Below, in pieces: positions 1,323 through 21,013 of a stretch of DNA of 33,000 nt; position 1 is the stretch's first letter; every line of letters starts with the position of its first letter. The DNA is from Alphaproteobacteria bacterium (GTDB lineage Bacteria > Pseudomonadota > Alphaproteobacteria > Reyranellales > Reyranellaceae), in NCBI GenBank assembly GCA_010032545.1, contig RGPT01000018.1:1-33000 (forward strand), written 5' to 3'. Under the pieces are notes generated by a model. That model saw nothing but the letters and a program-made list of their open reading frames with translations, was not told where the DNA came from and made no database searches. The position numbers and the translations under genes are program-made.

Positions 1323-3197
1323 CTAGGCTGCGCGGCGGCGGACGTATTTCAACAGGGCAACCAACGCCGCCGGGGTCACCCCCGAGATCCGGCCCGCTTG
1401 GCCGAGGGTTGCAGGCCGGTGCGCCTGGAGCTTTTGCCGGACTTCATTGGAAAGACCGCCGACCGCCCCATAGTCGAGGCCCTCCGGCAGATCCAGCGCC
1501 TCGTCGCGCCGATAGGCGCCGATATCCTGGCGCTGGCGCGTCAGATAGCCGGCGTAGCGGGCATCGATCGTGAGCTGTTCGGCGACGTCCCCGGCGATGG
1601 GCGAAAGCACTGGCCATAGGTCGACCAGCTGACTCCAGCCGATTTCGGGGTAGGCCAGGAGATCCAAGGCCGAACGCGCGACACCGTCCTGGTTGATGGC
1701 AATGCCCCGCTTGGCCAGTGCCGACGGGCTGATCTTCAAGCCGCCCGCCAATTCACGCGCTTCCGTGAGCGCCTGCTGTTTCACGTGAAACATTCGCGCA
1801 CGCTCGGAAGCGACGCAGCCGATCTCCATGCCGCGCGGCGTCAGCCGCTGGTCGGCATTGTCTGCCCGCAGCCAGAGGCGATACTCGGCCCTGGAGGTGA
1901 ACATCCGGTAGGGTTCGGTAACGCCCAAGGAGACCAAATCGTCAATCAAAACACCGAGATAGCCGTCGGCCCGGTCGACGACGAAGGGCTTTGCCAGCAC
2001 TGCATTCAACCCGGCGATCAGCCCTTGTGCTGCTGCTTCCTCATAGCCGGTCGTGCCGTTGATCTGGCCGGCCATGTAGAGGCCCGGAATCCGCCGCGTC
2101 TCCAGGGTCGCGCGCAATTCGCGGGGGTCGATATGGTCATACTCGATGGCATACCCCGGCCGCAGCATGGCGGCGTGCTCCAGCCCTGGGATCGTCTGCA
2201 AAATCTCGAGCTGCACGTCGCGGGGCAGGGAGGTCGAAATGCCGTTGGGATAGACGGTGTCGTCGTCCAGCCCTTCGGGCTCGAGGAAAATCTGATGCCT
2301 GTCTCGCCCAGCGAAACGAACAACCTTGTCCTCGATCGAGGGGCAGTAGCGCGGACCCACCCCCTCGATCTGACCGGAATACATCGGCGCGCGATGCAGA
2401 TTGGCGCGGATGATCGCATGCGTGGCCGCCGTCGTGGTCGTGATGTGGCAGGCGATCTGCGGCGTCGTGATCCGATCGGTGAGATACGAAAACGGCACCG
2501 GCGGATCGTCGCCGTCCTGGCGTTCCAGCCCGCTGTAATCGATGGTGCGGCCGTCGAGCCGGGCCGGCGTCCCGGTTTTGAGCCGCCCCAGCGCGAACCC
2601 CAGCCGATGCAACGTCTGCGCGAGTGCCGTGGAGGGTTCTTCAACCCCATCCCCTTGCCCCGGGCCACGCGCGCGGCCGGCCGGAATCTGCGTTTCGCCC
2701 ATATGGATCAGGCCCCGCAGGAACGTCCCCGTGGTCAGGATCACGCGGCCTGCGCCGATTTCCCGGCCCGACTCCGTAATCACGCCGGCACAAGCCCCGC
2801 TCGCATCGAGAATGATATCCGCAACCGGATCCGCCCGGATCTCGAGCCCCGGCTGTTCTGCCAATAGCGCCTGCACGGCGGCGCGATAGAGCTTGCGGTC
2901 GGCCTGGGCGCGCGGCCCGCGGACCGCCGGCCCCTTGGAGAGATTGAGCGTGCGGAACTGGATGCCCGCCCGGTCGATCGCCCGGCCCATGATCCCGTCC
3001 AGGGCGTCGATCTCGCGCACCAGATGGCCCTTGCCGAGGCCCCCGATCGCCGGATTGCACGACATCTCGCCGACGGTTTCGAGCCGGTGGGTGAGCAGCA
3101 GGGTGCGGGCGCCCAGCCGCGCCGACGCGGCCGCGGCCTCGCAGCCGGCATGGCCGCCGCCCACCACGATCACGTCATAAGGAAAGGCCCGTTGCAT
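1323..3197 (-). CDS. mnmG: MnmG (GidA) tRNA U34 carboxymethylaminomethyl synthase, FAD subunit
   Basis: FAD protein that with MnmE builds the cmnm5 group on wobble uridine 34 of certain tRNAs. Starting at the ATG at 3197 gives 624 residues, the normal length. The dinucleotide-binding GGGHAG is at residues 13-18 and the GidA signatures [15 protein letters not shown] and [12 protein letters not shown] are present; the C-terminal helical MnmE/tRNA-binding domain ends [11 protein letters not shown]. The frame is open 17 codons further upstream (to 3248), but those residues precede the family's normal N-terminus. rsmG follows after four bases, so the two are likely co-transcribed with parA. A parS site inside the gene encodes FHVKQ. 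No missing segments were seen in this protein. Confidence 0.97.
1777..1792. promoter_or_regulatory. parS centromere site (ParB binding), inside mnmG
   Basis: A second perfect copy of TGTTTCACGTGAAACA, 536 bases from the first and inside the mnmG reading frame, where it encodes part of MFHVKQQ. Two identical sites beside parA, about 11-12 kb from the proposed oriC, match the usual alphaproteobacterial centromere arrangement. Confidence 0.97.
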
Positions 3198-11900: not shown

Positions 11901-12788
11901 CTAACTCGTTTGCAGTCTCTGTTCGCGGCGCGTCGCCAGCATCTGCAGGATTGCCGCCGCAGTTTCCTCGATCGACCGCCGCGTGACATCGATCGTCACC
12001 CACTTGCGCCGCGCATAGAGGCGGCGGGCATCCTGGATCTCGCGCTGCACCTGTTCCATGTCGGTGTATTCGGTTTCGGTTTCCTGCTGCAGCAGGCGCA
12101 GACGGTTTACCCGGATCTGCACCAGCCGCTCGGGATCGGTAATCAGCCCCACGATCAGAGGGCGCTTGGCGTCCTCGAGTTCCTGCGGTGGCGGCACCTC
12201 CGGCACCAGTGGCACATTGGCCGCCCGCACGCCGCGGTTGGCGAGATAGACGCAGGTTGGGGTCTTGGACGTCCGCGACGGTCCGACCAGGATGACGTCG
12301 GCGTCCTCCAGATCGTGCGTCGATTGACCGTCGTCGTGCGCCAGCGTGAAATGCATGGCGTCGATGCGATCGAAATAGCCTTCGTCGAGCTGATGCTGGC
12401 GGCCCGGCCATTGCTCGCTCTTGGAATGAAAATGGACGGCAAGCACGCTCATCGCCTGGTCGAGAACGCCGACGCAGGGAAGCTGCAGCCGCCGGCAGTG
12501 ATCGCGCACGAGATCGCGCAGATCCTGGTCGACCAGCGTATAAAGGACGGGACCTCGGTCGCGTTCGACCGCCTGTACGACCTTTTCCATCTGCCCCCGC
12601 GTGCGCACCAGGGACCAGACATGCTCCTGAACGAAGATGCCCTCGTACTGAACCAGGCAGGCGCGCGCGACGCTGGACACCGTTTCACCGGTGGAGTCGG
12701 ACACGAGATGAACGTGAAAATTACGGTTTGCCACGGTGTGTTTTACCCCACAGTCCGGCCGGGAGAAACGCGGGATTGGCGCAGACAT
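11901..12788 (-). CDS. PPSR-type bifunctional kinase/phosphorylase (DUF299), PPDK or PEP-synthase regulator
   Basis: Regulatory Ser/Thr kinase and Pi-dependent phosphorylase that inactivates and reactivates pyruvate phosphate dikinase or PEP synthase. Conserved elements: FHVHLVSDSTGET (24-36), PGRQHQLDEGYFDRIDA, the nucleotide-binding GPSRTSKT (169-176), IYLANRG-like VYLANRGVRAANVPLVPEV and VTIDVTRRSIEETAAAIL. The ATG at 12788 has no clear ribosome site; a GTG at 12734 would give the family-typical short N-terminus (VANRNFHVHL), so the real start may be there. It is divergent from hemE across the proposed origin. The orthologous pair hemE/DUF299 flanks the origin in Caulobacter and Rickettsia (recalled knowledge). 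Whether the target is PPDK or PPS cannot be told here. Confidence 0.92.
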   Translation of the reverse strand: MSAPIPRFSRPDCGVKHTVANRNFHVHLVSDSTGETVSSVARACLVQYEGIFVQEHVWSLVRTRGQMEKVVQAVERDRGPVLYTLVDQDLRDLVRDHCRRLQLPCVGVLDQAMSVLAVHFHSKSEQWPGRQHQLDEGYFDRIDAMHFTLAHDDGQSTHDLEDADVILVGPSRTSKTPTCVYLANRGVRAANVPLVPEVPPPQELEDAKRPLIVGLITDPERLVQIRVNRLRLLQQETETEYTDMEQVQREIQDARRLYARRKWVTIDVTRRSIEETAAAILQMLATRREQRLQTS

Positions 12789-12980
12789 CGCGGGGACAGA
12801 TGGCGGGCTCCGCCCAAACCGGCCGATTCAGGACCCGACTCGCCTTTGCCCTCCAACTATTCGTCCCTTGCGGACAACTTGGGAGGAATGACCTGCGAAT
12901 CGGGAATCAGCCCGACCAACCAGCCGAAACCGGCCCTGGCCGGTCCACAGCCCCCTGGGGAGAAGAGTCCAATAGGGCGC

Positions 12981-13022
12981 ATCCCCACATGCCACAGGCC
13001 CTACTACTGCTACTACCTATTA
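12981..13022 (+). other. DnaA-box pair plus DnaA-trio (basal unwinding element) within oriC
   Basis: ATCCCCACA and the overlapping CATGCCACA are followed by GGCC and then CTA-CTA-CTG-CTA-CTA (13001-13015), one C, and CTA-TTA (13017-13022). On the complementary strand this reads 3'-GAT repeats, matching the DnaA-trio consensus 3'-[G/A]A[T/A] in six of seven triplets. DnaA is known to form a filament on such trios to open the duplex. Confidence 0.7.
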
Positions 13023-13034
13023 AGATTAGAGTAA
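13020..13034. promoter_or_regulatory. CtrA-like box (TTAA-N7-GTAA)
   Basis: TTAA at 13020-13023 and GTAA at 13031-13034 are spaced by seven bases, 7 of 8 matches to the CtrA consensus TTAA-N7-TTAA. It lies in the AT-rich end of the proposed origin and about 23 bases before the hemE start. CtrA blocks initiation at such sites in Caulobacter; here the function is inferred. Confidence 0.4.
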
Positions 13035-13056
13035 GAGGAAGCATGAGGGACAAGAG

Positions 13057-14109
13057 TTGAGCCGCGTGGAAGCACCGGGAAAGTTTCTGCAGACATTGGC
13101 CGGAACGCGCTTTCCGACGCCACCGGTCTGGTTGATGCGACAGGCCGGGCGATATATGCCGGAGTATCGCGCCGTTCGCGCGACGACAAAATCCTTCCTC
13201 GAATTCTGCTACACGCCGGACAAGGCGGTCGAGGTGACGCTGCAGCCGATCCGCCGGTTCGGGCTCGATGCCGCGATCATCTTTTCGGACATCCTCGTCG
13301 TACCCGACGCGCTCGGCCAAAAGGTCTGGTTCGAGGAGGGCGAGGGTCCGAAACTCGAGGCGCTGACCGACCCCTCACAATTCGGACGCCTCTCCCGCGC
13401 CCGCATCTCCGACCATCTGGCGCCGGTATACGAGGCAATCCGGCAGACCCGTGCAGCGCTGCCACGGGAAACCGCACTGCTGGGTTTTGCCGGCGCACCG
13501 TTCACGCTCGCCTGCTACATGATCGAGGGCAGCGGCAGCAAGGACTTCGCCAAGGTAAAGTTGTGGGCCTACAAGCATCCCGAATCTTTCAGGCTGCTCA
13601 TCGATCTCCTGGTCGAGGCCGTGGTCGACCATCTGGCCTACCAGGTCGAGGCCGGCGTCGATGCGGTGCAGCTCTTCGATTCGTGGGCGGGCGTTCTGCC
13701 CGAGGAGCAACTTTTTCATTGGTCGCTCGATCCGATGGTGCGCATCGCCAAGGGATTGCGTGAGCGTCATCCCGGGATTCCCGTCATCGCCTTTCCGCGC
13801 GCCGTCGGGCCGGCGATGCTGATGTATCGCCGCCCGGATACTTTTTCCGCCCTGTCGATCGACACCGGCGTCGGCGCACATTGGGCCGCCAAGGAATTGC
13901 AGCCGCACATCTGCCTGCAAGGCAACCTCGATCCGATCATGCTGGTGGCCGGCGGCACGGCAATGGAACGCGAGGCGACGCGCATCCTCGACAAGCTTGG
14001 CCACGGGTCGTTCGTGTTCAACCTCGGGCATGGCGTGGTGCCGCAGACGCCCCCCGACAATGTCGCGCGCCTGGTCGAGATCGTCCGAAGCTGGAAGCCC
14101 GGCGCATGA
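13057..14109 (+). CDS. hemE: HemE uroporphyrinogen III decarboxylase
   Basis: Cytoplasmic enzyme that removes four carboxyl groups from uroporphyrinogen III to give coproporphyrinogen III in haem synthesis. 350 residues, normal length. The substrate-binding signature PPVWLMRQAGRYMPEYR is near the N-terminus; IIFSDILVVPDALG carries the conserved active-site aspartate; GFAGAPFTLACYMIEG and FNLGHGVVPQTPPDNV complete the family pattern. The start is a TTG at 13057 preceded by GAGGGA at 13045-13050. An ATG at 13043 is in another frame and stops after five codons. It begins directly at the edge of the proposed oriC and overlaps hemH by four bases (ATGA). Control by CtrA/DnaA is plausible from position only. 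Confidence 0.96.
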   Translation: MSRVEAPGKFLQTLAGTRFPTPPVWLMRQAGRYMPEYRAVRATTKSFLEFCYTPDKAVEVTLQPIRRFGLDAAIIFSDILVVPDALGQKVWFEEGEGPKLEALTDPSQFGRLSRARISDHLAPVYEAIRQTRAALPRETALLGFAGAPFTLACYMIEGSGSKDFAKVKLWAYKHPESFRLLIDLLVEAVVDHLAYQVEAGVDAVQLFDSWAGVLPEEQLFHWSLDPMVRIAKGLRERHPGIPVIAFPRAVGPAMLMYRRPDTFSALSIDTGVGAHWAAKELQPHICLQGNLDPIMLVAGGTAMEREATRILDKLGHGSFVFNLGHGVVPQTPPDNVARLVEIVRSWKPGA

Positions 14110-20005: not shown

Positions 20006-20911
20006 TCATATTTCCCATGGCGGCGGCGTAAACTTCTCGATCAGGAAATTGACGAAGGCCGGGACCTTGGGCGCGAGGTGCCGGCGGTGCGGGTAGACGG
20101 CGTGGATGGGCACCGGCTCGTCGGCCGAGAAGTCGCTCAGCAGCGGTACCAGGGCGCCGTCGCGAATGGCCTGGGCCATGGTGAGCCGCGTCAGGCGCAC
20201 GATGCCGATGCCCTGCAGGGCGAGCTGCATCTGCATCTCGCCCTCGCTGACGGCGACCCGTCCCGCAACCTCGATCTCGCGAATCTGATTGTCGACGCGG
20301 AACTGCCAGCGGTTGAGGTGGGGCCGCTCCCGCGAGACGATGCAGTTGTGCCGCGTCAACTCTTCCGGGCGGCGCGGCGTGCCGTGGTGCGCGAGGTAGG
20401 CAGGTGCGGCACAGATCAGGCGTTTGTCCTCGCCGATCTTGCGCGCCATGAAGCTGGTGTCGGCCAGCCGACCGATACGGATGGCGATGTCGACGCCCTC
20501 CTCGACCATGTCGACCACGCGGTCGGTCGGCAGCAGCTCGATCTCCACCAGCGGATGGCGCGCCATGAACTCCGGAATCACGGGCGCGAGCTGGTGGGTC
20601 GAGAAGGCGAGCGAGGTGGTGACGCGGAGCAGGCCATGTGGCGTGCCGCGCTGGACCGAGATCTGCTCCTCGATGGTCTCGATCGCGCTCACGATCCGCC
20701 GCGCGGCTTCATAGAAGGCCTCGCCCTCGGCCGTGAGATGGAGCGCCCGGGTCGTACGCTGCAGCAGGCGGACGCCCAGCCGCGTTTCCAGCCGCGTCAC
20801 CAGCTTGCTGACGGCGGACGGCGAGAGGCCGAGGCCTGTCGCGGCGGCGGAAAAGCCCTTGGCCTCGACGACCCGCACGAAGGCCGCCATTTCGCTGGCA
20901 TGACCGATCAT
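20006..20911 (-). CDS. LysR-family transcriptional regulator
   Basis: 301 residues. The N-terminal winged helix-turn-helix spans about residues 1-60: MAAFVRVVEAKGFSAAATGLGLSPSAVSKLVTRLE (residues about 8-42), then RLLQRTTRALHLTAEG. The rest is a periplasmic-binding-like effector domain (HGLLRVTTSLAFSTHQLAPVIPEF, IAIRIGRLADTSFMARKI). This pattern belongs to the DsdC/CrgA-like branch often annotated as LysR regulators of oxidoreductases. It is divergent from the small-protein gene at 21014, with an AT-rich 70-102 base intergenic region, the normal layout for LysR control of the opposite gene plus itself. The co-inducer is unknown. The C-terminus PPPWEI ends cleanly. Confidence 0.92.
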   Translation of the reverse strand: MIGHASEMAAFVRVVEAKGFSAAATGLGLSPSAVSKLVTRLETRLGVRLLQRTTRALHLTAEGEAFYEAARRIVSAIETIEEQISVQRGTPHGLLRVTTSLAFSTHQLAPVIPEFMARHPLVEIELLPTDRVVDMVEEGVDIAIRIGRLADTSFMARKIGEDKRLICAAPAYLAHHGTPRRPEELTRHNCIVSRERPHLNRWQFRVDNQIREIEVAGRVAVSEGEMQMQLALQGIGIVRLTRLTMAQAIRDGALVPLLSDFSADEPVPIHAVYPHRRHLAPKVPAFVNFLIEKFTPPPWEI

Positions 20912-20922
20912 TGCCTAATTAG

Positions 20923-20935
20923 TGAATAATATTCA
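20923..20935. promoter_or_regulatory. Candidate LysR operator (TGAAT-N3-ATTCA)
   Basis: Inverted repeat TGAATAATATTCA, 12 bases upstream of the LysR start codon, in an AT-rich divergent intergenic region that stands out from the GC-rich surroundings. It fits the loose T-N11-A pattern of LysR sites. Function inferred from position. Confidence 0.45.
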
Positions 20936-21013
20936 TCAGTGTTCGTCAATATATACGGATTAACGAACTAAAGGACAGGAATTATGTTCTTTTCAACCTT
21001 GAAGGAGATTTCC

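Follow-up and report, generated by a model that had tools for sequence, protein, structure and literature searches.

The 33,000-nucleotide stretch analyzed here (the 'window') corresponds to contig 80 of an assembly comprising 567 contigs and 4.59 Mb. It contains a 322 bp intergenic gap, at positions 12735–13056, that separates two divergently oriented genes. On its left is a minus-strand DUF299 (Kinase-PPPase) gene (11904–12734, GTG start at 12734; PF03618, E = 2.9e-94), beyond which lie gidB, gidA, trmE and glnD. On its right is hemE (13057–14109, plus strand, TTG start; PF01208, E = 9e-117), followed by hemH and a UPF0093 gene. A preliminary description of the sequence had proposed this gap as a working chromosomal origin. 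We annotate all of it as a putative oriC, based on the position of the skew minimum in relatives and on blocks conserved among 54 upstream regions.

The closest relatives of the window's hemE (at most 94% identity) are mostly named Reyranella, with a few bearing other names, and are referred to here as the 'Reyranella lineage'. In that set, 52 of the 55 loci have DUF299 on the opposite side of the gap from hemE. Across the class, 99 of 144 genomes (the window's own included) gave a DUF299 score exceeding the cut-off; when 80 of the other 98 positive genomes were sampled, hemE was found within 2.5 kb of DUF299 in 74. No full dnaA was detected in the window's own assembly: only short AAA+ matches of ∼31 bits were found, on contig 164, and no DnaA C-terminal domain. 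Because dnaA is present in all relatives searched (4/4 and 28/28), its absence probably reflects an assembly gap, despite a stated completeness of 100. Properties of the DnaA protein in this organism are accordingly taken from its relatives only.

The right half of the gap contains an ordered series of elements. Two abutting DnaA-box-like sequences on the plus strand, box 1 (GCATCCCCA, 12979–12987) and box 2 (CATGCCACA, 12988–12996), differ from TTATCCACA at three and four positions, respectively. They are followed by a 4 bp spacer (GGCC, 12997–13000), five triplets reading CTA CTA CTG CTA CTA (13001–13015) that form 3'-GAT-type trios on the minus strand, a single C on the plus strand (13016) that ends the array, and a predicted AT-rich unwinding stretch of low stability (13017–13040). 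Two further box-like sequences lie to the left: CGGTCCACA (12941–12949, plus strand, three mismatches), which is conserved, and TTCTCCCCA (12956–12964, minus strand, two mismatches), in which a CTGGGGA core is conserved. All mismatches were counted against the generic TTATCCACA box and not a species-specific one.

We examined the conservation of these elements in 54 upstream regions (the window, L144 and 52 hemE loci; L011 and L047 were dropped as too short) and counted changes along a tree of hemE from 50 loci of the Reyranella lineage. That tree is built without L011, L036, L047, L053, L054 and L144, and the omission of L036 and L053 favors conservation in the counts that follow. The block ATCCCC (12981–12986) displays no change in any column, the next six columns (12987–12992) display 5 to 11 changes each, and the CACA that ends box 2, the part of that box that is mainly kept, displays 0, 2, 0 and 2. 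From this pattern of an invariant block, six variable columns and a kept CACA we read box 1 as GCATCCCCA abutting CATGCCACA. The letters of all elements stand where the preliminary description had placed them, with the exception of the register of box 1, which it had read as ATCCCCACA; column conservation places that reading two bases too far right. We treat CATGCCACA as a box, in spite of its mismatches, because many other Alphaproteobacteria have a good DnaA box at the same place, a TTATCCACA-like sequence being its positional homolog there. The spacer columns display 5, 8, 5 and 10 changes, indicating that its length is kept and its sequence is free, which corrects the GGCC of the preliminary description to a spacer of constant length.

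Within the array, conservation follows the triplet phase. The first positions of the five triplets display no changes at all, the second positions display 5, 5, 1, 0 and 2, and the third positions display 0, 0, 11, 0 and 0. The layout of boxes and triplets is almost constant across the 50 loci, and five C-first triplets plus the following C are present in 51 of the 54 regions in an ungapped read-out; a fifty-second, L054, which that read-out takes one register off, was recognized by eye. Of the other two, L053 carries an extra base, and L036, a second copy of hemE, lacks boxes. The box-trio arrangement, whose loss in close relatives had been named as grounds for abandoning the proposal, is thus retained. 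Column 13016 is a C in all 53 scored Reyranella rows and in 70% of 53 rows from the class, with T/A-rich DNA after it. We considered reading that C as a slipped trio and set this aside, since most arrays in the class end with the same base. The CTA-TTA that had been listed as final trios is better assigned to the AT-rich element, the array itself ending at 13016.

The array is also distinctive within the window. The 17-mer CTACTACTGCTACTACC (13001–13017) occurs once, even with three mismatches allowed, and none of 100 shuffles contained any occurrence. Only five start positions in the window give a 30 bp segment less stable than the one starting at 13011; for the AT-rich part, 46 start positions are less stable over 50 bp and 95 over 100 bp. 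The least stable stretch of the window is found away from the origin, at 20906–20960.

The published rule for box-trio modules calls for a better box with at most two mismatches and at least three NAN trios, no more than 16 bp apart (PMC8287927). With a box of at most two mismatches, that rule gives no match in 12735–13056; relaxed to three mismatches, it gives 23 matches on both strands of the window, and the generic rule is not significant here by itself. The trio part of the rule finds ample material (five NAN trios located 4 bp from box 2), and the box part falls short (three and four mismatches against the two allowed), although that limit is a program cut-off rather than a biochemical requirement. 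The significance of the module derives from the repeated CTA and from conservation and not from the boxes, in agreement with the original view that the trios are the stronger of the two signals.

The gap also contains five GANTC sequences, candidate CcrM methylation sites, between 12825 and 12969 (starting at 12825, 12837, 12897, 12904 and 12965). The window averages 1.9 such sites per kb, and the 322 bp of the gap, with five, fall in its densest part. The site at 12965 is kept in 14 of the 54 regions and the other four in 38 to 50 of them. Among other Alphaproteobacteria, 24 of the 47 modules that extend far enough contain GANTC in the 60 nucleotides from mid-array onward (8.2 expected), and methylation could thus have a direct effect on the unwinding element. 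The CtrA motif has the form TTAA-N7-TTAA. A single CtrA-like site is present in the window, with one mismatch, at 13020–13034 (TTAA-N7-GTAA; 0.34 expected). A perfect CtrA-type site was found in none of the 54 upstream regions and in 7 of 72 other class regions (1.3 expected).

The window is too short, and its own assembly too fragmentary, for analyses of nucleotide skew, and tests of origin position were therefore conducted on relatives. In Reyranella massiliensis 521 (a 5.79-Mb scaffold), 20 samples taken round the scaffold place the skew switch at 4.96–5.22 Mb. Within a contiguous 420 kb, the cumulative G–C minimum is at 4,989,509, which is 2.6 kb from the hemE start (4,986,950, as calculated from the range of the locus). 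For G059, a closed 5.44-Mb genome from the same genus, skew was sampled in 40 stretches of 20 kb; the best fit puts the origin at 1.92 Mb and the terminus at 4.74 Mb. Any origin between 1.38 and 2.02 Mb fits to within 10% of that optimum, a range that includes the DUF299 locus at 2.00 Mb. This second fit is coarse, the running sum of the samples being lowest at 1.755 Mb and not at 2.00 Mb. The skew minimum that had been suggested as a check is thus found beside hemE in R. massiliensis, with coarse agreement in G059, and we regard this as strong evidence that replication in the Reyranella lineage begins at or very near the DUF299–hemE gap. A marker-frequency peak close to hemE has been described for another alphaproteobacterium, Hyphomonas (PMC6650430).

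Is the array a peculiarity of one lineage? In 72 class genomes (one with a long gap was dropped, and the same-genus L144 was not counted), an iterated nucleotide profile identified the module at E < 0.05 in 56, the profile having been trained on the same genomes. Hold-out profiles, with no Reyranella in training, reached a threshold of 10 bits in 19 and 14 of the 36 genomes withheld from each, missing 17 and 22, respectively; shuffled sequences reached that score in 0 of 720 cases in each half. The window itself scores 12.8 and 12.9 bits with these profiles. The class consensus opens with ATCCCCG and a TTATCCACA-like box; after a short spacer come about five C-N-A repeats, usually a C, and T/A-rich DNA. 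Columns at the first triplet position (C) carry 1.15–1.87 bits and those at the middle position 0.45–0.61; in the 39 of 55 arrays from genomes lacking Asn187 (see below) that have a clear register, the plus-strand middle bases are 69 A, 63 T, 62 C and 1 G. Array stretches for G148 and L055 were taken by direct match. The iterated profile, checked by hold-out, took the place of a scan based on box-plus-trio scoring, which in many genomes chose sites off the array. A plain count of trinucleotides was weak, since CTA, CAA and CCA are all common in arrays.

We then considered the protein that would read such an array. B. subtilis DnaA captures two bases of each trio, the first and the second: Asn187 touches the middle adenine through its amino group, the G is bound by Arg202 and Glu228, and at the middle position cytosine is about as good as adenine while guanine and thymine work less well (PMC10721633). 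We aligned 112 alphaproteobacterial DnaA proteins (from 79 of the 80 class genomes, 4 plus 28 genomes behind named loci, and G148), with the B. subtilis chain in PDB 8btg as reference. Residue 187 is Tyr in 79, Asn in 20, Phe in 7, His in 3, Arg in 2 and Val in 1; all 112 have Lys at 202 and Glu at 228. In the closest relatives of the window, Asn187 and Glu228 are kept, and Arg202 and Asn196 are both replaced by Lys.

We conclude that the DUF299–hemE gap is very probably the oriC of a Reyranella-lineage alphaproteobacterium. The sequences themselves show the skew in relatives, the synteny, a layout that is conserved and changes in phase with the triplets, and an Asn187 in DnaA from close relatives; the skew, the synteny and the layout support the working origin first proposed beside hemE. 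The explanation that best accommodates the evidence taken together, and one in which we have considerable confidence, is that this is a working oriC at which a DnaA filament opens the strands by way of the triplets. DnaA binding, strand choice and unwinding at 12979–13040 would proceed as follows. DnaA would bind the weak tandem boxes at 12979–12996, held by the further weak boxes to the left, and a filament would run from box 2 across the 4 bp spacer onto the minus strand of 13001–13015. One triplet (3'-GAT GAT GAC GAT GAT-5') would lie between each pair of neighboring protomers, with the G and A of each captured, the A by Asn187 and the G by Glu228 together with Lys202 (residues taken from relatives). 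The AT-rich stretch at 13017–13040 would thereby be opened for helicase loading.

An origin at this site could also be opened in a different manner, with the triplets serving as a double-strand or structural element. In the E. coli scheme, for example, the strand returns to DnaA on distant boxes. Most class arrays have no conserved middle adenine, Tyr stands in place of the adenine-reading Asn in 79 of the 112 proteins, and the Arg expected at 202 is Lys in every one, all of which would suit such a scheme. Against it, conservation in triplet phase is found beside tandem boxes, at the expected side and distance, Glu228 is invariant, and the Reyranella lineage combines Asn187 with canonical triplets; we therefore consider opening by another scheme unlikely. 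It is less likely still that the conserved right half is mainly a hemE promoter and leader with only the look of an origin. In its favor, 51 of the 54 regions have ATGAGG in the 60 nucleotides preceding the hemE start, and the last triplets and AT-rich stretch persist at the second hemE of Reyranella soli (L036, ∼2900–3001), which lacks boxes and DUF299. However, a leader would not account for a skew minimum at the locus, for the conservation of boxes, spacer length and first triplets as well, or for class-wide modules beside hemE at varying distances from its start. L036 looks like a moved or acquired hemE, and because it keeps the right half by itself, part of the conservation there may serve hemE; the AT-rich stretch at 13017–13040 may likewise also serve hemE expression. 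Placing the origin elsewhere, near dnaA for instance, is the least probable reading of all. dnaA is a frequent neighbor of origins in other bacteria; in R. massiliensis it is 143 kb away from hemE, and in G059 it is 136 kb away from DUF299. However, the cumulative skew at R. massiliensis dnaA (−883) is far above its minimum (−2318), which brings this reading close to refutation.

In the region between the array and hemE, a short ATGAGG...TGA frame (13041–13060) overlaps the hemE TTG start; as judged by eye, that frame is not kept everywhere. The GAGG within ATGAGG is also a plausible ribosome site.

Comparison with relatives suggests that the triplet code may differ between lineages in step with residue 187 of DnaA. 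Runs of at least three CTN triplets are present upstream of hemE in 15 of 20 genomes with Asn187 versus 3 of 86 others (6 of 92 had no usable region), where 9.1 were expected from shuffles. Runs of at least four CTN are found in none of the 86 class genomes without Asn187, and runs of at least four CNA in 24 of them (0.9 expected). The three exceptions among the non-Asn genomes are G018 and G065, both with Tyr187 and with CTA CTA CTA inside the array, and G068, in which the run lies just after the array in a by-eye reading. The five Asn genomes without a CTN run all belong to the Reyranella clade, and in some of the 15 the run occupies trios 3–5 and not 1–3. A minus-strand middle T, which B. 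subtilis DnaA handles poorly, occurs in trios 1 and 5 of some Asn187 loci: in G059 (Asn), whose array reads CAA CGA CTC CTA CAA, CGA presents the tolerated cytosine and CAA a thymine. A strict rule that Asn187 implies T or G at all plus-strand middle positions is ruled out by G059, L028 and L049 (CAA in trios 1 and 5), and its strict converse fails on G018 and G065.

The Asn proteins form two separate clades in a quick tree, one comprising Reyranella with L055 (18 rows) and the other G109 with G148 (2 rows). There are only two independent pairs, both concordant in most random pairings, and a significant pair test is therefore not possible. Our hypothesis from these sequences is that the identity of residue 187 is linked to the middle-base code, a link drawn from two independent events. 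In its fuller form, which we advance tentatively and hold at somewhat short of even chances, the trio code would vary with DnaA: proteins with Tyr, Phe or His at 187 would read 3'-GNT-5' with only the G specific, lineages with Asn187 would carry the canonical 3'-GA[N]-5' triplets, and residue 187 would act as a natural specificity switch in origin unwinding. Among 27 DnaA proteins from elsewhere in the phylum, residue 187 is Asn in 8, Ala in 7, Thr in 6, Gln in 4 and Ser in 2; since it varies more widely than in the class alone, the change may have gone in either direction.

The locus can be compared with three related arrangements. It resembles Caulobacter crescentus Cori and the Hyphomonas origin in its place beside hemE, its weak DnaA sites and its GANTC cluster; Caulobacter itself uses moderate G-boxes and very weak W-boxes (PMC4468827). 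It differs from that type in the absence of a perfect CtrA-type site from all 54 Reyranella regions. With the B. subtilis BUS it shares the order and spacing of elements, 3'-GAT-type triplets and, in relatives' DnaA, Asn187 and Glu228, whereas its boxes fall below the published cut-off, Lys is found at 202 and 196 in relatives, and the flanking genes are hemE and DUF299, with dnaA more than 130 kb away. Other alphaproteobacterial C-N-A arrays have the same ATCCCC box, second box, short spacer, approximately five triplets, usual final C and AT-rich stretch, and differ in that most have a free middle base and Tyr187, and many have a box 2 near TTATCCACA.

The Reyranella lineage is thus a new member among hemE-type origins, and gains a defined, compact origin. 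The kind and place of origin were already known, and the extension of trio logic to this lineage, which the preliminary description had anticipated, is new only in part: in a survey from 2021, box-trio modules were predicted for 1755 of 2070 species, and its figure legend marks the five proteobacterial classes (PMC8287927). What is new is the comparison of degenerate-middle arrays and Tyr187, found in most of the class, with the mostly canonical arrays of the two Asn187 lineages. The survey required a middle adenine, such that arrays without one would not count. The comparison bears on how far one recognition rule for the opened strand extends across bacterial DnaA homologs; the authors of PMC10721633 raise the possibility that homologs recognize a range of sequences. 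If residue 187 and the middle base are indeed paired in nature, the rule could be tested by exchanging one residue and one base.

In the literature library searched, PMC10721633 was the sole match for Asn187 and DnaA, and Tyr187 may stand in its supplementary alignment; for DnaA-trio and Alphaproteobacteria, the match concerns Epsilonproteobacteria by its title, and the supplement of PMC8287927 may hold alphaproteobacterial arrays; for Reyranella and oriC, no title among the matches concerned origins. Finally, the left part of the gap contains two further blocks conserved among the 54 regions, at 12741–12800 and 12862–12910 (for example GGGAGAAACGCGGGATTGG and CGTCCCTTGCGGACAA), with no obvious DnaA boxes in them.
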